From a virus, in IMG/VR virus record IMGVR_UViG_3300028298_000010, positions 1 through 46,619 of that record: 46,619 nt of DNA; one strand, written 5' to 3'. Below the pieces are notes generated by a model. The model ran no database searches. It was given only the letters and a program-made list of their open reading frames with translations, and was not told where the DNA came from. The number at the start of each line of letters is the position of its first letter. Within the stretch, counting starts at the first letter, position 1. A program made the position numbers and the translations under genes. Below, piece after piece: positions 1 to 46,619 of this stretch.

Positions 1-66
1 TTTTATACTAGGATATTTTAACTTACTGTCCGTACAATATCTATCGAGCCAAATTGGAATATTCAT
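1..66 (-). CDS. int: Tyrosine recombinase, partial (second copy of the 5' end)
   Basis: This is the redundant copy of the first 22 codons of the recombinase at 45220-46059, cut by the window edge. It begins with ATG at position 66 and encodes MNIPIWLDRY and following residues. It is not a separate gene; it marks circular closure. Confidence 0.9.
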   Translation of the reverse strand, partial: MNIPIWLDRYCTDSKLKYPSIK

Positions 67-74
67 TTTTAAAG

Positions 75-121
75 TATTGATTTTATTAGTGATTAAAAAG
101 GGTTCTTACATAGTATAGTTA
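75..121. other. attI-like site 1, left copy (cassette 1 absent)
   Basis: This 43 bp block ends in the core GTTA at 118-121 and is identical to 46068-46114. Here it runs directly into cassette 2 (GTTAGCT at 118-124), whereas at the right end it runs into cassette 1 (GTTATGC). It is therefore the junction expected after cassette 1 is excised, or before it is inserted. Confidence 0.85.
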
Positions 122-547
122 GCTTCAATTGCCTGCCAACGCCCACTAAATCGTATCATAGCTATTCTCAAAAATATCGGGCTTACAAGGGTAGTGGCTT
201 ATACCATTCGGCTCGGTAATTATCCAATCTCCTTCTATAACTTTTGTCTTTTGGTTGTGTATAGTTACAACCTCTCCAAACCAAGCCGAAATGGTTCTGT
301 TTTCTTTATGGTAAGAAGCACTTGTCATTTGTAAGCCCTTTGGATATGGTTGCCCGTCAAACAAAATTGCTTCTAATAATTCTCTTGTAATTTGGTAAGC
401 CTCAATTTCAACGGGCTTTTTTCTAAATTTTTGTATCATATTTTTGTTTTTAATTTTCGTTAATAAATCCACGCAAGGCAACTAAAGCTAACACCACCTT
501 TGTAGTCAGTTTTGCGAAGGGCAAAACCGAACGCAAAGCTGTAAACG
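119..547. mobile_element. Integron-like cassette 2
   Basis: The 429 bp unit runs between two G|TTA core points. It starts GTTAGCT (118-124), and its own attC-like palindrome starts with the exact complement AGCTAAC (486-492). It carries one gene (146-439) on the minus strand. A truncated second copy sits at the right end of the window (46511-46619). Confidence 0.88.
146..439 (-). CDS. Small phage protein, cassette 2 cargo
   Basis: A 97-residue protein. The start at MIQKF (ATG at 439) is preferred over an upstream ATG at 481 because the common family start is an M-x-K-F-R-K-K-P pattern and the longer form would run toward the attC-like site. The C-terminal part contains GDWII and YPCKPDIFE, a pattern I recognise from widespread small phage hypothetical proteins; no biochemical role is known to me. 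It is the only gene in its cassette and is read from the attC end toward the previous core site. I can state family resemblance but not function. Confidence 0.8.
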   Translation of the reverse strand: MIQKFRKKPVEIEAYQITRELLEAILFDGQPYPKGLQMTSASYHKENRTISAWFGEVVTIHNQKTKVIEGDWIITEPNGISHYPCKPDIFENSYDTI

Positions 548-553
548 TTAGCT
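486..553. other. attC-like site of cassette 2
   Basis: A 68 bp imperfect palindrome from AGCTAAC (486-492) to GTTAGCT (547-553). The inner stem is GTTTTGC (509-515) against GCAAAAC (521-527) with a 5 nt loop, and a further stem pairs CTTTG with CAAAG. The architecture matches R''-L''-loop-L'-R' of integron attC sites. Confidence 0.85.
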
Positions 554-1402
554 GTAATTTTAAATTTTAAATATTTATTTTTTTTTCCACCGCACCTAAG
601 TAAATAAAGTAGGGTTAACTTTTTCTAATCGAGTTTTATCAAATCCGAACTCTGCAATATCTCTTTTAACTTGCTTTTCTTCTTCAAGCCATTTATTAGC
701 TGCTAATGCAAAATCCTTTTTAATCTCAAATCCATAACCTTTTCTATTCAATCTTTCTGCTGCTATAATAGTTGAACCACTCCCAGCGCAAGGATCAATT
801 ACTACATCTCCTTCATCTGTAAAAATTGAAATCAAAGTTTTTAAAAGTTCAACTGGCTTTTGTGTAGGGTGTATTCTCACATCCTTATCCTTCATATTTT
901 GCTGTATAAATCCGTGCCAAGTCCATTTTAATCGCCTAACAGCAGTATCAAAACTTGTCCAAGCCAGTTCACAATCAGCAAAATATCCACCTACTTTATC
1001 CTTATCCCAAACCAACCAACAAGGGCTATCGTAAGGCAATCGGCTTATAAAGTGGTTTGCACCCCACACAATTTGGTTCTTGCTTACCCTTATCAGCTCA
1101 TCAAAATATGCCTTGTCAGGTGCGTTTTTATCCCAATCTTTTTTAGTGTAAGTTTTAGCTTCAGCTGCCCCATCAATTCCGTATTTGCCACCATCCATAT
1201 TTATTCCATACGGTGGGTCAACTATCGCAGGGTCAAAATACTTATCAGGGTATCTTGCCATTAATTCCATACAATCTATATTTTCTAAAAGCATTTTAAA
1301 AACAAATTTTAAATTTAAAAATCTCCCCTTCTTTTTTTTACAGCTTATAACAGCACCTAAATCGCAAGGCTCGTGCCTCGCCCAGCGTTTAGCTGCAAAC
1401 CG
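548..1402. mobile_element. Integron-like cassette 3 (adenine/N4 methyltransferase)
   Basis: An 855 bp unit starting GTTAGCT (547-553) and ending at the core GTTACCA (1402-1408). It holds one methyltransferase gene. The left arm of its palindrome is TTATAAC (1345-1351). Only GTTA matches the cassette start, so this is one of the two cassettes without a full-length match. Confidence 0.78.
596..1294 (-). CDS. DNA methyltransferase, N6-adenine or N4-cytosine type (beta class)
   Basis: A 232-residue SAM-dependent methyltransferase acting on an exocyclic amino group of DNA. Catalytic motif IV DPPYGI is at residues 26-31, HPTQKPVEL at 142-150, and SAM-binding motif I DPCAGSGST at 167-175. The order catalytic motif, target region, SAM motif is that of the beta class. 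There is no restriction endonuclease partner, so it looks like an orphan phage enzyme. Protection of phage DNA from host restriction is the likely role (inference). It is the sole gene of cassette 3. The motif order and spacing look intact, so it should be active. The recognition sequence cannot be predicted. Confidence 0.93.
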   Translation of the reverse strand: MLLENIDCMELMARYPDKYFDPAIVDPPYGINMDGGKYGIDGAAEAKTYTKKDWDKNAPDKAYFDELIRVSKNQIVWGANHFISRLPYDSPCWLVWDKDKVGGYFADCELAWTSFDTAVRRLKWTWHGFIQQNMKDKDVRIHPTQKPVELLKTLISIFTDEGDVVIDPCAGSGSTIIAAERLNRKGYGFEIKKDFALAANKWLEEEKQVKRDIAEFGFDKTRLEKVNPTLFT

Positions 1403-1408
1403 TTACCA
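1345..1408. other. attC-like site of cassette 3
   Basis: The 64 bp palindrome runs TTATAAC (1345-1351) to GTTACCA (1402-1408). Inner pairings are CCTAAA with TTTAG near 1355-1393 and AGGC with GCCT around a short loop. It is weaker than its neighbours because the left arm does not match the cassette's own start beyond GTTA. Confidence 0.7.
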
Positions 1409-2471
1409 GCAAGCACTACGGACGTTCTTCGATTAAGCATTTCGGTTCAGTTTTAAATAATTTTTTTTCCTTCCCTTTTAAAAAAGAAAAGATGTGTTCA
1501 ACTATTCCAACACTCCATCCATCCCCAATTAAATTACCAGCTTGTGCTTTGTTTAGGTTTTTTGTATATCCTAAAGGTATATTGTGTAATTTTTCTAATT
1601 CTGTTTGTGTGCAATATCTCACTCCTTTACTTTCATCCATAGTTTCATCAGTGTAAATTATGGTTGTCATTCCAGTAGTAGCGTATCTATGCAACATATA
1701 TCTTTGGTTTGCATCTCGGCCACAACTTGTATTTAAACAAGTGTGTTTCTTTTTATCTGAATATCCGTATTCTAAAACATCATTCAGCATTATTTTTTTA
1801 TCTCTCGGTTGTGGTATTGCACTTTTCCTATTTCCAAATAAATCAAAACTTTCAGGCCCGATATTAGTCCAAAATAATCTATCCCTTAAAGCTCCACTTA
1901 CTTTTGAACCACACAATCTTACAGGTTCAGTTCCTAATAATTCAGTAATGGTATTGTAACCTAAATCATCCATAATCACATTTTCAAGTAAATAGTAGTT
2001 GGGTTTCGTTTCTTCCAATAATCTTATGTATTCATAAAACAACATTGATTTCATTCCTTTTAATCCATCCCTTACACTATTTGCCCTGCTAAAATCTTGG
2101 CACGGACTACCTCCAATTAATAAATGTATTTTTGGTAAATCTTGGCCTTTTACTTTGGTTACATCTCCAATCTGTATTGTATCAGGGAAATTGTCTAATG
2201 TGCATTGTATGGCGTGTTTCTTTATTTCAGCAGCATAATATCTTGTAGGTTTCAATCCTATGTTATTAAGTGCAATTTGTCCGCAACTCATACCATCAAA
2301 TAATGATAATACATTAAATTCTTCGGTCAAGCCGTTTTTGCCATCCCTCAAAAAATTATTTAAAACTGTTTCGTTCATCTAATTAGCTTTTGTTGTTAAT
2401 AATCCGTGCCAGCTGGTAACAACGGGTATAAGCAAGCGGCAGAAAAAGCCGCCAGCCCATACCCGCAACCG
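1403..2471. mobile_element. Integron-like cassette 4 (C5-cytosine methyltransferase)
   Basis: A 1069 bp unit that starts GTTACCAGC (1402-1410). Its palindrome starts with the exact 9-base complement GCTGGTAAC (2412-2420). It ends at core GTTAGCC (2471-2477) and holds one gene. It is the last recognisable cassette of array 1; the replication genes follow. Confidence 0.9.
1416..2378 (-). CDS. DNA C5-cytosine methyltransferase
   Basis: A 320-residue Dcm-type enzyme that methylates carbon 5 of cytosine in DNA. SAM motif I LSLFDGMSCG is at residues 24-33, the catalytic loop GGSPCQDFS has Cys93, motif VI ENV is at 132-134, an arginine-rich motif VIII equivalent is around 163-169, and a C-terminal GNLIGDGWSV motif corresponds to motif X. 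All key residues are present. There is no cognate nuclease nearby, so it is probably an orphan anti-restriction enzyme (inference). It is the only gene of cassette 4 and lies next to another methyltransferase cassette of an unrelated class. Confidence 0.94.
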   Translation of the reverse strand: MNETVLNNFLRDGKNGLTEEFNVLSLFDGMSCGQIALNNIGLKPTRYYAAEIKKHAIQCTLDNFPDTIQIGDVTKVKGQDLPKIHLLIGGSPCQDFSRANSVRDGLKGMKSMLFYEYIRLLEETKPNYYLLENVIMDDLGYNTITELLGTEPVRLCGSKVSGALRDRLFWTNIGPESFDLFGNRKSAIPQPRDKKIMLNDVLEYGYSDKKKHTCLNTSCGRDANQRYMLHRYATTGMTTIIYTDETMDESKGVRYCTQTELEKLHNIPLGYTKNLNKAQAGNLIGDGWSVGIVEHIFSFLKGKEKKLFKTEPKCLIEERP

Positions 2472-28684: not shown

Positions 28685-30793
28685 TTATATATTATCGGTT
28701 ATACGTTTATCTGATTCTTCTGTTATTCTTTGTTCACTTACCGTTGGGTTTCCTTTTTCTGTCATTCTATATCCCGTATCAACAAACTTCTTTGACATCG
28801 CAGAAACTTGATACGAATTTACAGATAATTTTGATGTGTCAATACAAAAATCTGCCCTAATAACAATTCCAGAAGTAACATAATCTTCATCCTCATTTGT
28901 AATTGAATCGGTGGTTAATTGTTCTAATTGACTGCCTGCCCATGATTCGGCTTCATCCAACGCATTTATTCCTGCATTTTCTGGTACAATATTAACAATT
29001 AATTTTCTATCTGTTAATACACTTCCAACTTCCGAAGCAAAGCATGGTGTTTCCCCTTTACAAAAATCAACAACTTCATCAAAGCCAGAACGCGCTCCAC
29101 CGTCATAATGTTTAATAGTAACGCTTCCGTAATCTTTAACTCGTATTTGCTGATTAAAAACAACCTCATCGGTAAAAGGAGTATTATAATCGTCATAAGT
29201 GAAAAACAACTTCCATGAAACTGCTAATGTTTTGCCTCCCCAATACTGGTCTGATTGTGGTGGAGTTACTGGCACTCCATTTACTAAAGTTCCAATGCAA
29301 GGAATATTTGTTTCAAATCTGTTTCTCCATTCATAAATAAACTCGGCCCAAGTATTACCAAAGTTTAATGTCAATCCATCTTGAGTAGTATAAGAGTTTA
29401 TTCCGTATTTAGTCGAGCTTTTATAATCATAAACGTTTTGAATAATACCAAATGAAGGGTCGTAATTAGTATCATAAATTGTAATAATAACGTTAGTTAA
29501 ATACCTTCTGATATCGTTACCTACTGTAAGCCCCAAACGATTATAAATATCGTTTTTCCACTTATCGAAAGGGTAATATAATTTTAATTTAGAACGCATC
29601 CTCTCCTCAATAACACATTCTAAATCATTACCTAAAAACTGCTGATTATAATCATCTAAAGAAGCAATTGCCTCAAATCCTTCTCCGTCAAAGCAAGGTT
29701 CAGAATCAACAGAATACTCATCAGAGATAAAGCTGTTTACTTGTGTATTTGCATCATCATAAACTATTGATATTAGTCTGTATTTACCAAGGTTTGTGAG
29801 TTTTGTTGCATCTAAAACAAATCCACATTTATAAGTTGTTCCTGATACTAAAGCGATGTCAACAACAGGAGCAATAATTTTATCAACTCCGATTCCAATG
29901 CCTCCTGTTTCAACTTCCACAAGATTTGCCTCGTAGTTGTCAAACATCGTCACATTATCATCAAATTTATCTGTTCTAATTATCCAAGATAAAATTTTTG
30001 TTGGCGTTGTAGGACAATCAACTTTGAATAAAACTGTTGTATTTCCTGTTGCGGATAAATTTGTAACCGCTGTTGCTGATCTTGTTAATTCCCATATAGG
30101 ATTAGAGAAATAAGGAGAGCCATTAATTTCATTTTTATTATAAAATCTTGATGTCCATTGAGCTCCTATAATTGGCATCGCATGATCAGTATAAAGATAA
30201 GTTGATGGGGCGTGAATTTGATTAGGTTTCTCAATTAAAAGATTGATTGTAAAATTACCTGCTACATTATTATAAAAATTTATGACGCTACCAACCGTTA
30301 ATTCAGTTGTTGCGGTTTTCATATCCATTAATAATTTATTGTGGTTGTTTTGATATGCCACATTTTGATAGGTCGTTTCATCATATATCTGATAAAACTC
30401 AACTATAATATTAAAAGTTGTTGCAGTTAATACTTCGAGAAACACTTGACAGTTATTGTTTAGGTTCGGATTCGCACCAACAGGAACTGTCATTGCTAGT
30501 TGATAGGTTCCTGCAGTAAAAGCTCCGATAATAGGGATTGAATGATAAATTGGCACTTTTATATTTGCGCCCGAAATAACACCCTGGACTTCCATTCCAA
30601 CTTGCACCCACCAATTAGTGTCATCTAATCCTGGTACATAGCCAGCAGTTGAATATGATATCTTTACCCTTTTGCGCTCTCCAATAGAACGTGGAAAAGA
30701 GCCAATGCCTCCCGTTATATAAACACTCCCGTCAGGAAGTAAGGTTTCTTCTGTTGACCCTGTTATTGAAATTGGTATATCTAATAAGCCCAT
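28685..30793 (-). CDS. Large tail/baseplate protein
   Basis: A 702-residue protein, mostly beta-rich in the first 340 residues (repeated Ig-like patterns around TYKCGFVLDATKL) with a more helical/charged middle. Position between the distal-tail-like gene and the fibre-side genes suggests baseplate or side fibre. No recognised domain. Confidence 0.6.
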   Translation of the reverse strand: MGLLDIPISITGSTEETLLPDGSVYITGGIGSFPRSIGERKRVKISYSTAGYVPGLDDTNWWVQVGMEVQGVISGANIKVPIYHSIPIIGAFTAGTYQLAMTVPVGANPNLNNNCQVFLEVLTATTFNIIVEFYQIYDETTYQNVAYQNNHNKLLMDMKTATTELTVGSVINFYNNVAGNFTINLLIEKPNQIHAPSTYLYTDHAMPIIGAQWTSRFYNKNEINGSPYFSNPIWELTRSATAVTNLSATGNTTVLFKVDCPTTPTKILSWIIRTDKFDDNVTMFDNYEANLVEVETGGIGIGVDKIIAPVVDIALVSGTTYKCGFVLDATKLTNLGKYRLISIVYDDANTQVNSFISDEYSVDSEPCFDGEGFEAIASLDDYNQQFLGNDLECVIEERMRSKLKLYYPFDKWKNDIYNRLGLTVGNDIRRYLTNVIITIYDTNYDPSFGIIQNVYDYKSSTKYGINSYTTQDGLTLNFGNTWAEFIYEWRNRFETNIPCIGTLVNGVPVTPPQSDQYWGGKTLAVSWKLFFTYDDYNTPFTDEVVFNQQIRVKDYGSVTIKHYDGGARSGFDEVVDFCKGETPCFASEVGSVLTDRKLIVNIVPENAGINALDEAESWAGSQLEQLTTDSITNEDEDYVTSGIVIRADFCIDTSKLSVNSYQVSAMSKKFVDTGYRMTEKGNPTVSEQRITEESDKRITDNI

Positions 30794-30794
30794 T

Positions 30795-32525
30795 TTATAT
30801 TGTTCCTTTAATGATTAATGTTCCGTTTGCTGTATTTTCTGTTATTATTAATGGTCCTTGTGAATTGCCCAACGAAGTCTTAACAACTCCATCAATATCC
30901 ATTGCATTTCTCAAAGCGCAGTCGTATTCAACCTCTGCCTCGAATTCTTTGCCCTGATAATTGCTTAATCTTGGGTTTTCTATTTCATGGAAGCGATCTA
31001 ATAAATTACCCGGCACACCTTCCTTAAACCACATCGGATAATTGTAATATTGGTTTGCTGAAACAACTCCAACTAAAGAAGGGAAATAAATGTTTGTAAA
31101 CTTATTCGCAAATGCATTACCCACTCCACTGTCAGGGTCCCATATAACTAACATCGGTAAATAACTTGTATTTTGGTTCATTATCATTGAGTTTTTGTAT
31201 CTCAAAATTAATGTATTTATTGTCGGTTGGGTTTCATAAAATGTAAGAATATCCCTATCAATACCATCATCCCTGAAACGGCAAGCTGCAAATGGTATCA
31301 ATGGCTCATAAGTTCCTTTTTGTAAAGGAGAATATGTCGCAGCAGGATTCCATTCAACAATCTCTCCCCATCTTGGTACGGCTTCACTTCCTACTGTATT
31401 AATTGCATCTTTTTGGTAGTGCAAATTGGCATAAGAATATCTGTTTTTATGGCTCCAGTTCCAACAAATCTTAACTACTTTATCATAAGTCGTTAAATCC
31501 AACCATGGCGTTTTAGGTACAAAGTAATCTCTGCGCTCGAATACTAAAGTGTTGTTTGTAACTTCAAATTTGGCGTTAAATACTATTGCAAGCTGATCAA
31601 AGAATTGAAGTCCCGATAATATTGGAGCATTTTCATCAATCCAGTAAGTTGTGCTGTCTGATTCATCGACTCCTTTATGAACAGGAGCGTTTACATAAAC
31701 TAAGTTCCAATATTCATTTGCAGAGTTGTTTAATATTGTAGAAACGAAGCTAATCCCACAAACCTTACATACGTTTTCGGCATAATCTCTTACTAATGGA
31801 GATGGGTGCTTACGGCCACATCCAACACCTAAAGCCAATATGCTGTCAATCCAACTTGAAAACTGTTGAAAAGTTGTTGTGGAAGGGTCCCCATCTAAAT
31901 CAATCGGGTCAACCTCATCCATGAAAGGACCACCAGGAAAACCGTTAATAATTCCTATTATTTGGTTGTTTATATTTATAATTAGGTTAATACCATCTAT
32001 TATTAACGCAATAAGAGCCAACACAGGCCCCATCGTTAAGAAAGCAGTATAAAGAGCCAATGTTATAATAATCATCAAATCTCCAAGCCAATTTGGTCGT
32101 AATTCGTTGCAATAAGACATTCGCGGATGGTTGATGCTTTTAAATCCAAAGCGGTCATCCCATATTAGGGTATTCTTTAAGCATGTATATTGATCATTCG
32201 CTAAGCTTTTTTCAATTGCTGCAGCTGTTAAGTCACAAGAATTCTCGCACCAAGTTAGCGATTCGTGATTTATGTAAAATTCCCTTACCAATGGTGTTGA
32301 ACAACAATCATCAACAAATTTCAATACAACTTTATTTTCTAAAGCGTTTATACTTGTAACTAACTGAGCATATAAATAATCATAATCAACTCCAGTAAAT
32401 GTTAACTCCCCTGTAAATGAGAAAGCCCTGTCTCCTGTTTCATCCTGTCTCCTAAACGTAAAAGACGGCTTTCTCAAACCGTCTGAAACATTAACTACAG
32501 GAATATTATCTAAGTAAACTTTCAT
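30795..32525 (-). CDS. Tail-tip protein downstream of the tape measure
   Basis: A 576-residue protein directly after the tape-measure gene, where distal tail or tail-associated proteins are encoded. It has a beta-rich N-terminus, cysteine pairs (CCSTPL, CENSCDL, CKVCG) and a long hydrophobic block at about 148-195 (LALYTAFLTMGPVLALIALI). The block is unusual for a tail protein and could insert into the host envelope during DNA entry (inference). Confidence 0.62.
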   Translation of the reverse strand: MKVYLDNIPVVNVSDGLRKPSFTFRRQDETGDRAFSFTGELTFTGVDYDYLYAQLVTSINALENKVVLKFVDDCCSTPLVREFYINHESLTWCENSCDLTAAAIEKSLANDQYTCLKNTLIWDDRFGFKSINHPRMSYCNELRPNWLGDLMIIITLALYTAFLTMGPVLALIALIIDGINLIININNQIIGIINGFPGGPFMDEVDPIDLDGDPSTTTFQQFSSWIDSILALGVGCGRKHPSPLVRDYAENVCKVCGISFVSTILNNSANEYWNLVYVNAPVHKGVDESDSTTYWIDENAPILSGLQFFDQLAIVFNAKFEVTNNTLVFERRDYFVPKTPWLDLTTYDKVVKICWNWSHKNRYSYANLHYQKDAINTVGSEAVPRWGEIVEWNPAATYSPLQKGTYEPLIPFAACRFRDDGIDRDILTFYETQPTINTLILRYKNSMIMNQNTSYLPMLVIWDPDSGVGNAFANKFTNIYFPSLVGVVSANQYYNYPMWFKEGVPGNLLDRFHEIENPRLSNYQGKEFEAEVEYDCALRNAMDIDGVVKTSLGNSQGPLIITENTANGTLIIKGTI

Positions 32526-37829: not shown

Positions 37830-38333
37830 CTATTTTTGGATTGACTTTAGGGCTTGATTATCTATTGAAAATAACCTATTATCTTTTGATAAATACATTC
37901 CCTCAAATAGTAATTGAGAGTTTTTTATTTCAGTTAGTAAGGCTTTCTTATCAACTTCATATAATTTTACAGATTCATAATTTACTGATTCGTAAGCCTT
38001 ATCACATAATCTTTCTTTTTTTGGGATTGAAATATTGGTTAATCCTTTTAATGCTTGTATAAAAGCCATTTCAGTATTATAAGCTTCTTCTTCTATTAGG
38101 TTTTCAGAATGAATCTTAATTATTGGGGATAAACCGTTATTGTATATTTTTTTAATAGTGTTTATCTTTTTTAGGTTTTAGCCCTTCATTTTAAGGTGCT
38201 GCCATGCTCTTTTGCCTATTCCTTTGCCAACATAAAAAACCTTATTATTTAGTGGATTTATTAGAAAATAAACGTAAAAACCACTTGGATTGATTGATAA
38301 GTAAGCGCTATCTATTTCTTTTTTTATATCCAT
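37830..38333 (-). pseudogene. GIY-YIG endonuclease gene broken by an in-frame stop
   Basis: The first 51 codons (from ATG 38333) encode a GIY-YIG domain of the LEM-3 type: FYVYFLI at 19-25 and KVFYVGKGIGKRAWQHL at 31-47. A TAA at 38180-38178 interrupts; the same frame stays open from there to 37830 with EEEAYNTEMAFIQALKG, the expected helix following the fold. One alternative frame near the break also reads protein-like, so a small indel in the A-rich stretch may have occurred as well. It is probably a decaying homing endonuclease. Confidence 0.72.
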
Positions 38334-38839: not shown

Positions 38840-39265
38840 TTATTGATTAAGTAATTTTTGAATAGTTGGTATTGACTTTGAAATTAATTGAGCATATTCT
38901 TTTTGGAGCAGGTCGATTTTATATTGATGAAACTTTGCCATGTGCTCAAACATTACCAAGGCTATATCTGGAGGCATATAGTTTACTGAAAACATTACCG
39001 CTTCATCTTTTTTTACATCGACCATATTTGCAACTTGTTGATTTGAGAACCCGAATATTGGCATTACAATTACTTGTTCTTTTACCTCCTCGCAAAACAA
39101 ATCTGGCTTCTTTACTCCAAGGTTCACTAATTCCATTTGAAGCCTTACGTTCAAAACTAAGTGCCTTTGATTTAGCAGGATTTTAGCATACTTTTTTAAG
39201 GCTTTTAGCTCTGTTTGATGCGCCACTATTTCATCGCTTATGTCTGATAGTTTTTTGTAGTTCAT
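38840..39265 (-). CDS. Hypothetical protein
   Basis: A 141-residue helical protein (KKLSDISDEIVAHQTELKAL; EHMAKFHQYKIDLLQKEYA). No family recognised. It is downstream of the attI-like site 2 and terminates before a promoter box. Confidence 0.65.
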   Translation of the reverse strand: MNYKKLSDISDEIVAHQTELKALKKYAKILLNQRHLVLNVRLQMELVNLGVKKPDLFCEEVKEQVIVMPIFGFSNQQVANMVDVKKDEAVMFSVNYMPPDIALVMFEHMAKFHQYKIDLLQKEYAQLISKSIPTIQKLLNQ

Positions 39266-39350: not shown

Positions 39351-39357
39351 TTTAGAT

Positions 39358-39404
39358 TATTGATTTTATTGGTAGTTTGAGAGTTTTCGTACATATACTA
39401 GTTA
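39358..39404. other. attI-like site 2
   Basis: 43 bp before core GTTA (39401-39404). It aligns without gaps to attI-like site 1 (46068-46110) at 31 of 43 positions, including the first ten bases TATTGATTTT and TACATA near the core. Four cassettes follow it. Confidence 0.8.
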
Positions 39405-39439
39405 CCTGCAAGCGGTGGCGGTGTTATTTATATTTTTGA

Positions 39440-39673
39440 TTATATAAGTTCACTTAATTTATACTCTTTTGAAACCCACCCGTTTTGTGCTTCCGTCGTA
39501 CTATACCAAACAGTAGCTCTTGCTGTTTCTTCACTAATATATAAACCATTCCAATCCATTCTTAGATTAACGATTGCACCTTCTCCATCGGGTGTTTTTA
39601 CTAATTGTCCTAAACTGAATTTAGGCATTTGCTCTAATCTTTCTAAGATTGCTTTATTATATTCTGTTTTCAT
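39440..39673 (-). CDS. Small hypothetical protein, cassette A
   Basis: A 77-residue protein with FSLGQLVKTPDGEGAIVNLR followed by a Trp-rich WNGLYIS and VWYST pattern, similar to small beta-barrel (KOW/SH3-like) phage proteins. Function unknown. Confidence 0.7.
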   Translation of the reverse strand: MKTEYNKAILERLEQMPKFSLGQLVKTPDGEGAIVNLRMDWNGLYISEETARATVWYSTTEAQNGWVSKEYKLSELI

Positions 39674-39683
39674 ATGATTTTTA

Positions 39684-39902
39684 TTATTTATTACAAATTA
39701 TACTTCCTATACTATTACAATGATTCAGTATAATATTTCCTTTACCTTCCATTTTTAGTTCATCATTCTCATACATATCTTTCAATTCAGCAACGTGTCT
39801 TAAAATCTCATGTTGTTCTTGTTTATTAAGTATGACAGAATCCTTTAATCTGCTTACCGTATGCTTATTAAAAGCATCAATGTTGTAAGTTGTTTTTTTC
39901 AT
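39684..39902 (-). CDS. Small hypothetical protein, cassette A
   Basis: A 72-residue helical charged protein (LNKQEQHEILRHVAELKDM). It lies 10 nt upstream of the other cassette A gene, with its start next to the attC-like site. No family recognised. Confidence 0.6.
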   Translation of the reverse strand: MKKTTYNIDAFNKHTVSRLKDSVILNKQEQHEILRHVAELKDMYENDELKMEGKGNIILNHCNSIGSIICNK

Positions 39903-39951
39903 ATCTATGTTTTTTATATTAAAGTCTTATAGCAACATTCAGTCCGCCAGC

Positions 39952-40006
39952 AGGTAACACAACCTTGTAGCCATAAAGAAACGGCTACAAGCTTCGTTCG
40001 TTATAA
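39952..40006. other. attC-like site of cassette A
   Basis: A 55 bp palindrome from AGGTAAC to GTTATAA (40000-40006), with a perfect 9 bp inner stem CTTGTAGCC (39964-39972) / GGCTACAAG (39983-39991). Confidence 0.88.
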
Positions 40007-40148
40007 GCCATTGGCGAAAAGCCAACGGTTCGCTTCGCCTTATAACACAGGCTTGGCAAAAGGCTTACATTCGTTCTTCGTATTATCATTTCGTTTCAAA
40101 AATTTAATAAATAAAAAGCCATCGCACTTTATAATTTTTTGCAAAAAT

Positions 40149-40391
40149 TTAAGAGGTTTCGTTAATTATCAATTCCCATTTATCGGGTGTAAAAACTTCT
40201 ACTATAATTTTACCTTTCTCGCCAATTACTTTTCTTTGAAAACTGTCGCCAACATTTGTGTCCATAGTCCAAACGGCTATCCCAATATAAACACCTTCTC
40301 TCCAACATTTATATTTTGCTCCAAAAACCAAAATATGTTTTTCGCTTTCGCTTGGATTAAGCGATTTTAAATAATCTTGTAGTTCACACAT
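40149..40391 (-). CDS. Small hypothetical protein, cassette B
   Basis: An 80-residue protein with beta-type segments (KHILVFGAKYKCWREGVYIG, AVWTMD). One-base overlap with the upstream gene (TAATG). No family recognised. Confidence 0.62.
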   Translation of the reverse strand: MCELQDYLKSLNPSESEKHILVFGAKYKCWREGVYIGIAVWTMDTNVGDSFQRKVIGEKGKIIVEVFTPDKWELIINETS

Positions 40392-40642
40392 TATTCTTGC
40401 TTTTTATTAAATTGTTTATTAAAATCGTAAATAGCTTTCATTAACGTTTCTCCCTCTCCAAATACCGTTCTGCTATAAACAACTTGCCATTTTTTACCAT
40501 AGTTTGTTACTGTTGGTTTTAGCAACCTGAATAGGTTCATTTCTTCCTCTTCAATTAGCACATTCATTTTTGATTGATGCTCTAATCTTTCGTGCAGTAT
40601 TTTTTCGTTTGAAAGATTTACATAATATTCTGATTCATTCAT
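40391..40642 (-). CDS. Small hypothetical protein, cassette B
   Basis: An 83-residue protein with a charged N-terminal helix (EKILHERLEHQSKMNVLIEE) and a beta-rich C-terminal half (WQVVYSRTVFGEGETLM). It starts next to the attC-like site; TAATG-coupled to the downstream gene. Confidence 0.62.
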   Translation of the reverse strand: MNESEYYVNLSNEKILHERLEHQSKMNVLIEEEEMNLFRLLKPTVTNYGKKWQVVYSRTVFGEGETLMKAIYDFNKQFNKKQE

Positions 40643-40688
40643 TTTTTCCTCCCTTTTTTTATTTATTAAATTTTTGTTCAGTTCTTCG

Positions 40689-40741
40689 TAGTAACATTTT
40701 CGGTTAATAATCGCCCTTCGCCAAGCCCGAAACCGTTAGTA
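40689..40741. other. attC-like site of cassette B
   Basis: 53 bp: TAGTAAC to GTTAGTA (40735-40741) with stem TTTCGG / CCGAAA. Its right half GCCAAGCC (40719-40726) also pairs with GGCTTGGC at 40050-40057, 660 bp away. Confidence 0.62.
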
Positions 40742-41057
40742 CCAATAGCCTTTATCGTTTACGCTTCGGTTGTTGATATTAGCAAGATATACCCTCTAAA
40801 TCTTTTAGCATTTGTTCAACATTCATTCCCTTTTCTTTTAATCCTAAAATTATTTCTCTTGTTTTTTTCTTAGCTCTTACCCTTGCCGATAATCTTTCTT
40901 CTTTTAAAAGAATGCTAAATAATTTATAGGCATCTGTATGTTTTGATATATCCATGTTTTTAAATTTTAATTTGGCTACTAGTACTAACACAACCCTTGC
41001 TCAATTTGGCAAGTGCTATGTGTGTTAAAAAGCCAAACTAAGCAAGGCTCGATAACG
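40736..41057. mobile_element. Integron-like cassette C
   Basis: A 322 bp unit that starts GTTAGTAC (40735-40742). The palindrome starts with the exact complement GTACTAAC (40982-40989). One small gene. Confidence 0.86.
40779..40955 (-). CDS. Small basic protein, cassette C
   Basis: A 58-residue basic, helical protein starting MDISKHTDAYKLF (ATG 40955), chosen over an upstream ATG that lies in the attC-like site. It contains RLSARVRAKKKTREIILGL. DNA binding is possible; no family recognised. Confidence 0.6.
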   Translation of the reverse strand: MDISKHTDAYKLFSILLKEERLSARVRAKKKTREIILGLKEKGMNVEQMLKDLEGISC

Positions 41058-41063
41058 TTATAA
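40983..41063. other. attC-like site of cassette C
   Basis: An 81 bp palindrome: TACTAAC, CCTTGCT with AGCAAGG, TTTGGC with GCCAAA, ending in core GTTATAA (41057-41063). Confidence 0.87.
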
Positions 41064-41482
41064 GCAATAAAATTAATTTTGCCCACGCACGTTATTCATT
41101 ACATCACAAATACTATTCGCATTAGCAATCACTTCCTCAAAAGCGTGTTGCCTTCCTCCTGTGCCTTTTAGATATGAATAATAATTATCTTCCTTTAGGC
41201 AACCGTTCTCAACATCTTGCTCAGTAATTCCTAATGATGGTTTCAGGTCGGCAATAATGCAACCCTTGTAATCTCCCATCAAATTATTATTCTCCCATTC
41301 CTTTACTCTTATTGTAAGGTCGCTCATTTCAAGCACCCATTTTCCTTTTGTTGTTTTTGGTCTTAATAATTCCATCGCTAAAATTAATTTTACAGCTTTA
41401 TAACAAAGGCTAAAAAGCAATTGCCACTAAGCGTGTTATCAAGCAGTATTTGTTAATAGGCAACTGCTTTTAGCCTCAACCG
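41058..41482. mobile_element. Integron-like cassette D
   Basis: A 425 bp unit that starts GTTATAAGC (41057-41065). Its palindrome starts TTATAAC (41398-41404), the exact 7-base complement. One gene. Last cassette of array 2. Confidence 0.85.
41073..41375 (-). CDS. Hypothetical protein, cassette D
   Basis: A 100-residue protein starting MELLRPKTTKGKWVLEM (ATG 41375), preferred to 41420, which lies in the attC-like site. It contains KEWENNNLMGDYKGCI and two further cysteines. No family recognised. Confidence 0.65.
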   Translation of the reverse strand: MELLRPKTTKGKWVLEMSDLTIRVKEWENNNLMGDYKGCIIADLKPSLGITEQDVENGCLKEDNYYSYLKGTGGRQHAFEEVIANANSICDVMNNVRGQN

Positions 41483-41488
41483 TTATTT
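41398..41488. other. attC-like site of cassette D
   Basis: 91 bp: TTATAAC, then AGGCTAAAAAGCAATTGCC (41406-41424) pairing with GGCAACTGCTTTTAGCCT (41459-41476), ending in core GTTATTT (41482-41488). Loop of about 34 nt. Confidence 0.9.
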
Positions 41489-43843: not shown

Positions 43844-44475
43844 AAGTGAAATGTACAATATTCGTTTTCGTAAACACCAAGATCTAAATTGATTTCGTTC
43901 CTTAGTTCAATTCTTTTTTTTAAACTATAAGTTAAATTAGCTTTAATTAATTTATTAGCTATTTTACAGGCTTTTTTATAGACAGCTCCATATTCTAAAG
44001 GTGCTATTTCTGGGCATGGTGTACGTCTTAAATCTGAAATAAACTCCAAATATTCCTCGCCATATTCATTTTTAATCCCTTCTTTCATTAATCCATCATC
44101 ATTTTGAAAATGGTTTGATTGAGCAGATTGTCTATGAATATTATGTAAATTCATTGCCATATAAGAATTACCGCCCCTAGCAAAAACATGACCTCCATGA
44201 ACTTGTTTAGGAAAAACATTTGTAGCAATACATGGCAATCCTTTGTCAATTAACCTTGTTATTTCTTGAATCTTTGACTGCAATCTTTCCTTAAAAACTC
44301 CACTATTTTCAATTTCTAATTTAATTTGTTTATGTCTTTTTTTTATTTCTTTTTCAGAATTATAGTTTAAAACATGATTAGTTGCAGCATTTATACAAGT
44401 TTCATTCGACAAACAAAACTTTTGTAAAAAGAATTTAGGTTTGAATTTTATGTTACACTCTATACATCTTGGCAT
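43837..44475 (-). CDS. ninG: NinG/Rap-like recombination nuclease
   Basis: A 212-residue protein. The N-terminus has cysteines CIECNIKF and CLSNETC; the core LQSKIQEITRLIDKG, CIATNVFPKQVHGGHVFARGG, MNLHNIHRQSAQSNHF and YGEEYLEFI matches the NinG/Rap HNH-related family. In lambda, NinG acts in branch-structure cleavage and the late phase of recombination. It overlaps the adjacent gene by 16 nt. Confidence 0.85.
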   Translation of the reverse strand: MPRCIECNIKFKPKFFLQKFCLSNETCINAATNHVLNYNSEKEIKKRHKQIKLEIENSGVFKERLQSKIQEITRLIDKGLPCIATNVFPKQVHGGHVFARGGNSYMAMNLHNIHRQSAQSNHFQNDDGLMKEGIKNEYGEEYLEFISDLRRTPCPEIAPLEYGAVYKKACKIANKLIKANLTYSLKKRIELRNEINLDLGVYENEYCTFHLC

Positions 44476-45020
44476 AATATTAAGCTTGTGTTGTTTTTAT
44501 AAATACCTCTTAAAACTCTACTTAAATGGCTTTGTGATATATTAATATCTTTTGAAGCATCTCCAATGGTATCATATATTTTGCCTGTTTTTAAGCATTT
44601 AATTTTTTTACTATTAAAACAATCTTTTCCTTTTTTTATAGTTACTAAATTATTTTTTACTGCATGAATCATGTTTTCACTTGGAGTAACCCATTCTAAA
44701 TTAACTGCTCTATCATCAGTTTTAATTCCATTAATATGGTTTACGTGTGGCTTATTTTCTGGATTTGGAACAAATAATGTAGCGATAATTCTACAACATC
44801 TTTTAGTACTAGGTTTATCATTTAAACTTAAATTAATACTATTATATCCTTTGCAATTTCCAATATAGCGTTTAGATTCTTTTTTTAATCTAAAATGCCT
44901 TTTATTATTTGATGAATGATTGAATCCAATTACTCTTTCTAATGATTTAAAATTACCTAAATTACTCGCTTGATATAAACCTTCATAACCAATAATATCT
45001 TTCCAAATTTCTGTTTCCAT
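44460..45020 (-). CDS. HNH homing endonuclease with NUMOD domains
   Basis: A 186-residue protein. NUMOD4 is at about 5-30 (IWKDIIGYEGLYQASNLGNF), HNH_3 at 90-115 (HVNHINGIKTDDRAVNLEWV), and a NUMOD1-like C-terminal DNA-binding repeat. It is a free-standing homing endonuclease inserted at the 5' end of the NinG/lysis operon. Catalytic His and Asn are intact. Confidence 0.88.
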   Translation of the reverse strand: METEIWKDIIGYEGLYQASNLGNFKSLERVIGFNHSSNNKRHFRLKKESKRYIGNCKGYNSINLSLNDKPSTKRCCRIIATLFVPNPENKPHVNHINGIKTDDRAVNLEWVTPSENMIHAVKNNLVTIKKGKDCFNSKKIKCLKTGKIYDTIGDASKDINISQSHLSRVLRGIYKNNTSLILCQDV

Positions 45021-45129
45021 TTTATTAAAACGCCCATTCAGAACAAAGGCTTATCCGACTGCTAAGTGTTAGCAAATGGCAATGTAAAGAATGGGATTTT
45101 TTAAATGTTTTCATATCGAATAAGCATTG
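45021..45129 (-). promoter_or_regulatory. Structured leader before the HNH/NinG/lysis genes
   Basis: About 110 nt from the promoter box to the ATG at 45020. It contains CCCATTC/GAATGGG and TGCTAA/TTAGCA stems. A GTTAGCA motif with partly attC-like surroundings (ACAAAGGCT) lies here, but complementarity is poor. Confidence 0.4.
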
Positions 45130-45148: not shown

Positions 45149-45220
45149 TTAAACTTGAGAAATTAGTTTAAATTGGCTTTCGCAGATTGGACATATTTTG
45201 TCCTTTATTTTTTTTGCCAT
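45149..45220 (-). CDS. Short CxxC peptide coupled to the recombinase gene
   Basis: 23 residues, MAKKIKDKICPICESQF and on, with a CxxC and basic start. It starts in the recombinase stop codon as TAATG. It may be a remnant or a small regulator. Uncertain. Confidence 0.3.
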   Translation of the reverse strand: MAKKIKDKICPICESQFKLISQV

Positions 45221-46059
45221 TATAGTTGAATGTTTGAAAGTGGGCTTTGAATTTTACTAATGTGATTGTCAGAAATATGCAAATAAATATTTGTTGTTTT
45301 TACTGAGGAGTGACCTAATAACTTTTGAAGTAAATTAATATCAGTTCCATTTTCCACGTGATGCGTGGCAAAGCAGTGTCTAATAAGATGAGTATGTACT
45401 CTTTTTGTAATGCCAGCTTTTTCAGATAACTGTTTAACAACCTCTCCAATACTTCTATCTGTATATCTTAATTCTTTATCAGGAAACTGACCATTAAGAA
45501 CATATTTAATTGTTTTATATTCATTATAGTAATTTTCTAGCAAAGGAATAATCTGTATTGGCAAACCGACTTGTCTATCTTTTTTACCTTTTCCTTGAAT
45601 AATATTAATTATTTTACGACTCCTATCAATATGTTTCCATTCTAAATTTATCAACTCAGAAACCCTAAATCCACAAGAGTACAATAAGGATAAAATTACC
45701 TTATGTTTCTTATTCTCACATACATTAAACATTCTCTGAATCTCGTCAACTGACAAGACAATTGGTAGCTTTTTATCTTTTTTACTAAATGGTATTTTAT
45801 CCACCTTTAAAGGCATCCCAACGGTAATTTCATAGAACGATTTGATAGCACATAATTTATGGTTACGAGTGTTAATAGTATCAAAAGTACATAAGTATTC
45901 TTTTATTTCTTGTGTTGAAATTCGGGATGGTTCTTTTGAATCCTTAAATTTATAAAGAAAGGATTTAACAGAGGATTGATAATTTTCCTGAGTTTTTATA
46001 CTAGGATATTTTAACTTACTGTCCGTACAATATCTATCGAGCCAAATTGGAATATTCAT
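45220..46059 (-). CDS. int: Tyrosine recombinase, presumed cassette integrase
   Basis: A 279-residue enzyme of the XerC/D-phage integrase type that cuts and rejoins DNA by a covalent tyrosine intermediate. The N-terminal SAM-like domain is at about 1-85. Catalytic residues are R132 (GFRVSEL), K157, H224-x-x-R227 (HLIRH), H250 (LLGH) and Y259. It ends in SPL, as do many IntI and Bacteroidota integrases, but lacks the extra IntI-specific segment between the lysine and the HxxR motif. Its ATG is 9 nt from attI-like site 1. The cassette arrays imply it acts on attI and attC; this is an inference. Confidence 0.88.
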   Translation of the reverse strand: MNIPIWLDRYCTDSKLKYPSIKTQENYQSSVKSFLYKFKDSKEPSRISTQEIKEYLCTFDTINTRNHKLCAIKSFYEITVGMPLKVDKIPFSKKDKKLPIVLSVDEIQRMFNVCENKKHKVILSLLYSCGFRVSELINLEWKHIDRSRKIINIIQGKGKKDRQVGLPIQIIPLLENYYNEYKTIKYVLNGQFPDKELRYTDRSIGEVVKQLSEKAGITKRVHTHLIRHCFATHHVENGTDINLLQKLLGHSSVKTTNIYLHISDNHISKIQSPLSNIQL

Positions 46060-46114
46060 TTTTAAAGTATTGATTTTATTAGTGATTAAAAAGGGTTCTT
46101 ACATAGTATAGTTA
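45994..46114. repeat. Terminal repeat, right copy, segment 1
   Basis: Identical to 1-121. After it, 46115-46509 is unique to the right end, and 46510-46619 equals 118-227. Confidence 0.97.
46068..46114. other. attI-like site 1
   Basis: 43 bp followed by core GTTA (46111-46114), between the recombinase ATG and cassette 1. The same sequence without cassette 1 is at 75-121, and a similar site heads array 2 (39358-39404). Confidence 0.85.
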
Positions 46115-46402
46115 TGCAACATTAAAGAAGCAATCACTTAAACCTTGAATTTTCCAACTACAATGAATATTTTCCATTGATTCCTCAACAGGTGTTTTAT
46201 CTGCCCATCCATCAGCATAATATTTAATTCTATTACCTTCTAAATACTCAGTAATTACCCAAGAAGGTTTATTTTCTGAATATTGACTATTAAATATTTC
46301 TTTAGGTCTAAAAGCATTTAAGGTATTGCAAAACCTTATTAAATCGAAAGAAATTTTGTCTATTATAATTCTTTCTTTAGTTGTGTGAAAATGTTGTTTC
46401 AT
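46112..46402 (-). CDS. Hypothetical protein, cassette 1
   Basis: A 96-residue protein starting MKQHFHTTKERIII (ATG 46402), preferred over 46456, which lies in the attC-like site. It contains a WVITEYLEGNRIKYYADGWA segment. Its stop TAA is the TTA of the core GTTATGC. No family recognised; the polymorphic cassette carries only this gene. Confidence 0.65.
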   Translation of the reverse strand: MKQHFHTTKERIIIDKISFDLIRFCNTLNAFRPKEIFNSQYSENKPSWVITEYLEGNRIKYYADGWADKTPVEESMENIHCSWKIQGLSDCFFNVA

Positions 46403-46510
46403 ATTATAATTATTTAATTGTTTGAAAAATAAAACGTCGCATAACAACGCATACAAAACAAAGGCTGAATAAACAAGATACAGAAGCCTTCGTTCCGTAT
46501 CCGCAAAACG
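46112..46510. mobile_element. Integron-like cassette 1 (present/absent polymorphism)
   Basis: 399 bp. It starts GTTATGC (46111-46117), and its palindrome starts with the exact complement GCATAAC (46439-46445). It is missing, cleanly at GTTA, from the left-end copy of the locus. Confidence 0.93.
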
Positions 46511-46516
46511 TTAGCT
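46439..46516. other. attC-like site of cassette 1
   Basis: A 78 bp palindrome: GCATAAC, ATAC with GTAT, AAGGCT (46461-46466) with AGCCTT (46485-46490), ending in core GTTAGCT (46510-46516). Confidence 0.9.
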
Positions 46517-46619
46517 TCAATTGCCTGCCAACGCCCACTAAATCGTATCATAGCTATTCTCAAAAATATCGGGCTTACAAGGGTAGTGGCTTATACCATT
46601 CGGCTCGGTAATTATCCAA
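46510..46619. repeat. Terminal repeat, right copy, segment 2
   Basis: Identical to 118-227. It is the start of cassette 2, cut by the window end. Confidence 0.97.
46538..46619 (-). CDS. Cassette 2 gene, partial second copy
   Basis: The C-terminal part of the gene at 146-439, repeated because the genome is circular. Not a separate gene. Confidence 0.9.
   Translation of the reverse strand, partial: WIITEPNGISHYPCKPDIFENSYDTI

Follow-up and report, generated by a model that had tools for sequence, protein, structure and literature searches.

Organisation of the locus

The window analysed here is an entire IMG/VR virus record of 46,619 bp (IMGVR_UViG_3300028298_000010), whose two ends, positions 1-227 and the last 626 bases (45994-46619), are one locus, with 100% BLAST identity on both sides of a single difference. 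The phage genome behind the record is therefore probably circular or terminally redundant, with a population, or two assembled ends, that differ by one block. End-to-end comparison gives an exact match of 121 nt and then one of 110 nt, which overlap by 4 nt, GTTA, while the right-end copy contains 399 nt without counterpart in the left-end copy. The breakpoints of the filled form read TATA/GTTATGC at 46111 and AAAAC/GTTAGCT at 46510, and the joined (empty) form reads TATA/GTTAGCT at 118. The first-pass annotation had reported the shared locus with its 399 extra bases, a break inside GTTA, an attC-like palindrome opening with GCATAAC in a block that starts with GTTATGC, and an adjoining tyrosine recombinase gene; each of these observations is reproduced here, and the start codon of that gene lies 52 nt from the break. 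The arrays extend beyond the region then recognised, both in cassettes 2-4, which reach position 2471, and in a second array behind an attI-like site of its own (39353-41488). The features of the window are the following:

1-121, plus strand: left-end copy of the locus, lacking cassette A1; crossover G at 118
119-547, plus strand: cassette A2, 429 bp; ORF 146-439 (minus strand); attC 486-553, z -4.8
548-1402, plus strand: cassette A3, 855 bp; N6/N4 DNA methyltransferase 596-1294 (minus strand); attC ~1345-1408 with a degenerate R''
1403-2471, plus strand: cassette A4, 1069 bp; C5 cytosine DNA methyltransferase 1416-2378 (minus strand); attC 2414-2477, 9/9 complement, z -5.4
39353-39407, plus strand: attI-like site 2; crossover G at 39401; 74% identity to site 1 over 62 bp; no recombinase beside it
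39402-40000, plus strand: cassette B1; ORFs 39440-39673 and 39684-39902 (minus strand); attC 39952-40006, 9/9 complement
40001-40735, plus strand: cassette(s) B2/B3; two ORFs (minus strand); weak attC ~40689-40741; boundary less certain
40736-41057, plus strand: cassette B4; ORF 40779-40955 (minus strand); attC 40983-41063
41058-41482, plus strand: cassette B5; ORF 41073-41375 (minus strand); attC 41398-41488
45220-46059, minus strand: tyrosine recombinase, 279 aa; R132/K157/H224/R227/H250/Y259 present; lacks the IntI-specific (I2/patch) domain
46064-46117, plus strand: attI-like site 1, TTACATAGTATAG^TTA; crossover G at 46111; no single-strand folding
46112-46510, plus strand: cassette A1, 399 bp, right-end copy only; ORF 46112-46402 (minus strand), 96 aa
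46439-46516, plus strand: attC-like site of A1; R'' GCATAAC, R' GTTAGCT; bottom strand folds, z -4.4

At least eight cassettes are thus arranged in two arrays, each behind its own attI-like site (crossovers at 46111 and 39401), and the two sites are alike. Array A (A1-A4) follows the recombinase gene and includes one N6/N4 and one C5 DNA methyltransferase, while array B (39402-41482) follows the second attI-like site; a search of the window for other tyrosine recombinases found none besides that at 45220-46059. All cassette genes of the window lie on the minus strand and point toward attI and the recombinase gene, in the same direction as the surrounding phage genes. Two of the eight cassettes (A3 and B2/B3) have degenerate or unmatched R'' boxes, and the start of B2/B3 is perhaps a gene-less cassette. 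Moreover, an attC-like remnant (AACGCCCATTCAGAACAAAGGC...GTTAGC) is found at 45030-45075, downstream of the recombinase gene and beside a NUMOD4/HNH endonuclease gene (44460-45020).

Recombination sites

The attI is short and AT-rich and has GTTA as its core, and the single-strand folding tested for both attI-like sites of the window is absent (z 0.25 and 0.66). The bottom strands of the attC-like sites, on the other hand, fold better than shuffled sequences (z -3.0 to -5.4), and these sites combine the R''/R' and L''/L' inverted repeats of canonical attC sites with a cassette start complementary to the cassette's own R''. In A1, eight of the first nine bases (GTTATGCAA) are complementary to the start of its own hairpin at 46439-46516. 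Across seven cassettes of the window, the matches between the start of each and its own attC amount to 8, 8, 7, 9, 9, 8, and 7 of nine, a sum reached in 3 of 5040 label permutations and in none of 20,000 random-start sets.

A possible difference from canonical sites concerns the one-sided extrahelical base at L'', the docking point of I2, which folding predictions place in only 10 of 102 attCs of the phage clade described below, compared to 14 of 21 in a canonical set containing many related sites. Instead, a 1x1 mismatch is commoner in the predicted folds of the clade. As far as such folds can be trusted, this scarcity would fit an enzyme without I2.

A tyrosine recombinase without the IntI-specific domain

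The recombinase encoded beside attI-like site 1 retains all six catalytic residues, while the insert that defines IntI proteins is absent from its alignment. The spacing between D161 and H224 is 63 residues in this protein and 60-63 in nearly all clade members, whereas it reaches 101-103 in seven IntIs; the same interval measures 55-63 in nearly all domain-less relatives and 64-68 in E. coli XerC/XerD. The missing domain thus corresponds to roughly 40 residues. The integron-integrase model TIGR02249 matches 24 of 24 clade records in two pieces, skipping positions ~180 to 240, and none of the 24 exceeds the cut-off. Such a match does not make the recombinase an IntI, since ordinary Xer proteins of control genomes also match the model below the cut-off.

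The predicted structure (pLDDT 88) is nearest to archaeal XerA and then to VchIntIA. In the recombinase tree, the phage clade forms one group (SH-aLRT 100) and the domain-bearing IntIs another (SH-aLRT 100), the former being placed among or near Bacteroidota XerA-like proteins, outside the IntI group, in what is a quick maximum-likelihood search with several long outgroup branches. Judged by its sequence, therefore, the recombinase is not a canonical IntI.

Relatives in viral and bacterial collections

An alignment-based scan retrieved about 50 IMG/VR contigs with recombinases at 47-72% identity, and the same kind of scan in 84,980 bacterial and archaeal genomes gave only four matches above 50%, all of them in MAGs and possibly phage contigs. 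The alignment query was needed to reach these relatives, as a single recombinase sequence found none in the viral and bacterial collections; likewise, an attI pattern built from the two copies of the window alone had no matches, and scans with the DnaB and TerL of the window gave nothing useful. Just upstream of the recombinase, an attI-like motif (consensus ...ttACATATA.tAGTTA) is present in 52 of 55 loci tested, usually at roughly 50-70 nt from the start codon and at about 110 nt in two loci, and a clear attI is missing in the other three. The attC that closes the first cassette is complementary to the start of that cassette at nine of nine positions in 34 of the 52 loci (mean of randomised-start controls 0.1) and at eight or more in 43 (control mean 2.1). 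Only matches of these two grades were used, because loose settings of the cassette finder close 11-23 of 43 by chance; the L-arm test was partly a selection criterion of the finder.

The PHROG family phrog_2 was matched in 5 of 26 contigs, which is too narrow a marker to show phage nature, and four contigs were therefore read further. One of them (G002) contains genes for TerL, portal, and major head protein together with a 99-bp exact end repeat, and virion proteins are encoded on other clade contigs as well. The hosts would be Bacteroidota, to judge from the similarity to Flavobacterium phages and the Bacteroidota matches.

Several observations were made alongside. The contig of locus L063 (G027) contains a second recombinase, apparently inside its 2066-bp second cassette, and the recombinases of two further IMG/VR contigs (L083 and L087) have a full IntI-specific region (102 residues) and are probably canonical IntIs in viral contigs. 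Domain-less bacterial relatives in Roseivirga, Allomuricauda, Tannerella, Pedobacter, and Spirochaetes (L116, L123, L117, L129, and L173, respectively) possess a GTT site of the attI-like kind at 114-344 nt upstream of the recombinase, together with one to three cassettes, each closed by its own attC, and the ORFs of these cassettes keep the usual orientation, pointing away from attI. Furthermore, related domain-less recombinases adjoin tet(X3) on plasmid pHH1107 (L014) and blaVEB-3 on K. michiganensis p2 (L015); one search for a cassette chain in the former was negative.

Cassette turnover in nature

Eight contigs from eight different metagenomes (L018-L025) carry recombinase genes that are 100% identical in DNA sequence, and are near-identical up to attI, where they diverge 4-7 nt past its G. 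Among related phages with identical recombinase and attI, the first cassette repeatedly differs exactly at G^TTA. L020 and L022, the latter on the contig G002 mentioned above, have three cassettes in common (326, 306, and 334 bp) that are 100% identical and stand in different order (1, 4, 5 versus 5, 4, 3), with a far flank common to both, which is cassette reordering. The downstream backbone of near-identical contigs was compared without gaps, which is informative only for identical cases. Moreover, the attC end of cassette B5 of the window, about 113 bp, is 94.7% identical to L019 in a different phage with a recombinase of the 72%-identical group, and this likeness suggests exchange between phages.

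The gain or loss of a single integron-type cassette at attI, as proposed in the first-pass annotation, remains the best reading of the 399-bp difference, and the same event recurs in related phages. The coexistence of filled and empty forms would be read from the two ends of the contig and from its relatives. The term integron used in that annotation holds for this movement of cassettes, but has to be qualified, as the recombinase is not a canonical IntI and the cassette genes are reversed.

Cassette orientation and cargo

The longest ORF points toward attI in 95 of 97 distinct clade cassettes, and in all 80 with ORFs of at least 80 aa, whereas the same finder applied to Vibrio, Shewanella, and class 1 arrays recovers the usual direction, away from attI, in 13 of the 14 cassettes that have an ORF. 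The clade ORFs are therefore co-oriented, yet opposite to those of canonical integrons. The 91 cassette proteins scanned include 15 DNA methyltransferases (six N6/N4, five C5, and four Dam), two TET-associated glycosyltransferases, one Lar-type restriction-alleviation protein, and one PAPS reductase, while the majority has no family; a counter-restriction role of this cargo may be proposed from the protein families. In addition, the furthest-upstream ATG falls inside attC in 36 of 95 clade cassettes (e.g., L047, L053, and L063), so that many cassette proteins start with a recurring attC-encoded N-terminal peptide of the type NGN..KPLL.AV.

Comparison with known systems

The first-pass annotation knew of no standard phage with a working integron, and in this respect it is superseded by published work: integrons and attC clusters have been described in phages, with IntI1 shown to be active on phage attCs (Qi 2023, PMC9892861). 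Since such phages are already published, location in a phage alone is not new. The variant that appears to be new is an integron with a domain-less recombinase, of which no earlier report was found in the open-access journal literature searched. The phage integrons and CALINs of that study are those of Vibrio phage p16, Shewanella M16-3, P1 L-II, and Polaribacter P12002L, the latter a virulent phage with methyltransferase cassettes. They share with the system described here the presence of integron parts in phage genomes and DNA methyltransferase cassettes, and M16-3 also has a second array with its own attI. However, their integrase-bearing members carry a bacterial-type IntI, detected with IntegronFinder, and the parts in the Vibrio phages derive from the host integron, while a domain-less phage-clade recombinase defines the present system. 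In P12002L (L005), further attC-like hairpins were noticed at 38876-38939, 38032-38093, and 32220-32284, the first of which adjoins another DNA methyltransferase, a long way from the cluster of such enzymes at 29248-32126.

Compared to chromosomal and mobile integrons (IntI1, VchIntIA), the phage system has the same attI beside the recombinase gene, the G^TTR crossover, attC hairpins that fold from the bottom strand with R and L boxes, cassettes of ~0.1-2 kb, and their turnover and reordering. Unlike them, its recombinase lacks the ~40-residue IntI-specific domain, its cassette ORFs run toward attI, the one-sided L'' extrahelical base is seldom predicted in its attCs, and the clade is known here almost only from phages. 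XerA/XerC-like recombinases (PDB 5hxy, 4a8e) are nearest in fold and sequence and equally lack the I2 helix, but they act on dif-like double-stranded targets, Xer enzymes serving to resolve dimers, and are not known to have cassette arrays. Finally, the variable genomic islands (MGIs) of cryoconite phages (Bellas 2020, PMC7468147) resemble the present case in that near-identical phages differ at fixed points and methyltransferases are the most frequent variable genes, five islands being annotated there as 'integron gene cassette'; unlike in the present system, neither a mechanism nor a recombinase family was assigned to them.

Proposed mechanism and alternative explanations

Taken together, these sequences very probably represent a cassette-capture system that phages carry and that functions in the manner of an integron, with a Xer-like recombinase lacking the IntI-specific domain. 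The recombinase would act on the double-stranded attI beside its own gene and on attC sites as folded single-stranded hairpins, and promoterless gene cassettes would be inserted, excised, and reordered at G^TTA by attI x attC recombination. Since the cassette genes are co-directional with the transcription of the phage itself, the array is probably expressed from a phage promoter located upstream, on the phage side. The likely benefit would be a quick exchange of counter-defence genes, given a cargo of DNA methyltransferases and other DNA-modification and anti-restriction genes. A domain-less enzyme in cassette capture is unexpected, because deletion of I2 abolishes IntI1 in the literature (eLife 2020, PMC7790495).

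Alternatively, the arrays might be moved in trans by a canonical IntI, encoded by the host or by a co-infecting element, and the phage recombinase would then be a bystander, for instance a dimer resolvase or a lysogeny integrase. IntI1 indeed recombines attC sites from integrase-less phages (Qi 2023, PMC9892861), and Polaribacter phage P12002L has attC sites and no annotated recombinase. We nevertheless regard this explanation as unlikely for the clade, where the attI-like site lies just upstream of the phage recombinase in 52 loci and evolves together with it, where a domain-bearing integron integrase is matched above the cut-off in none of 24 records, and where the predicted attC folds mostly lack the L''-side extrahelical base (see above).

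It is less probable still that the recombinase, as a tyrosine recombinase, is a phage lysogeny integrase and that the variation of the arrays stems from ordinary homologous recombination. Homologous exchange is common in phages. However, the exchanges seen here start exactly at the G^TTA of attI, entire cassettes recur with 100% identity in another order, and at least one clade contig (G015) has another, unrelated integrase. Least credible is an assembly artefact at the contig ends, or a chance deletion at a microhomology of 4 bp. Either would account for a contrast located at two ends of a metagenome contig, but not for a block that is an entire cassette, terminated by an attC of its own, and whose two breakpoints coincide with a crossover site that 52 other loci show independently. 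The exact sharing of crossover points was the reason for rejecting both an assembly artefact and homologous recombination.

Implications

The IntI-specific domain is held to be necessary for integron recombination, and its profile is required by IntegronFinder (PMC9668308); I2 in particular is considered to be needed for cassette capture and has been called exclusive to integron integrases (PMC7790495). We consider it reasonably likely that a Bacteroidota phage lineage runs integrons with a recombinase that either never had or lost I2, so that single-strand attC recombination would be independent of I2, and that an I2-less system with the usual gene orientation may sit unnoticed in Bacteroidota and spirochaete chromosomes, finders requiring the IntI-specific profile. 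If this holds true, standard software misses a whole class of integrons, and the origin of integrons could be tested directly in a natural family that lacks I2 but has attI, attC hairpins, and observable shuffling of cassettes. Moreover, such a system would provide a mechanism by which phages rapidly exchange counter-defence genes, and dozens of public genomes are available for its study.
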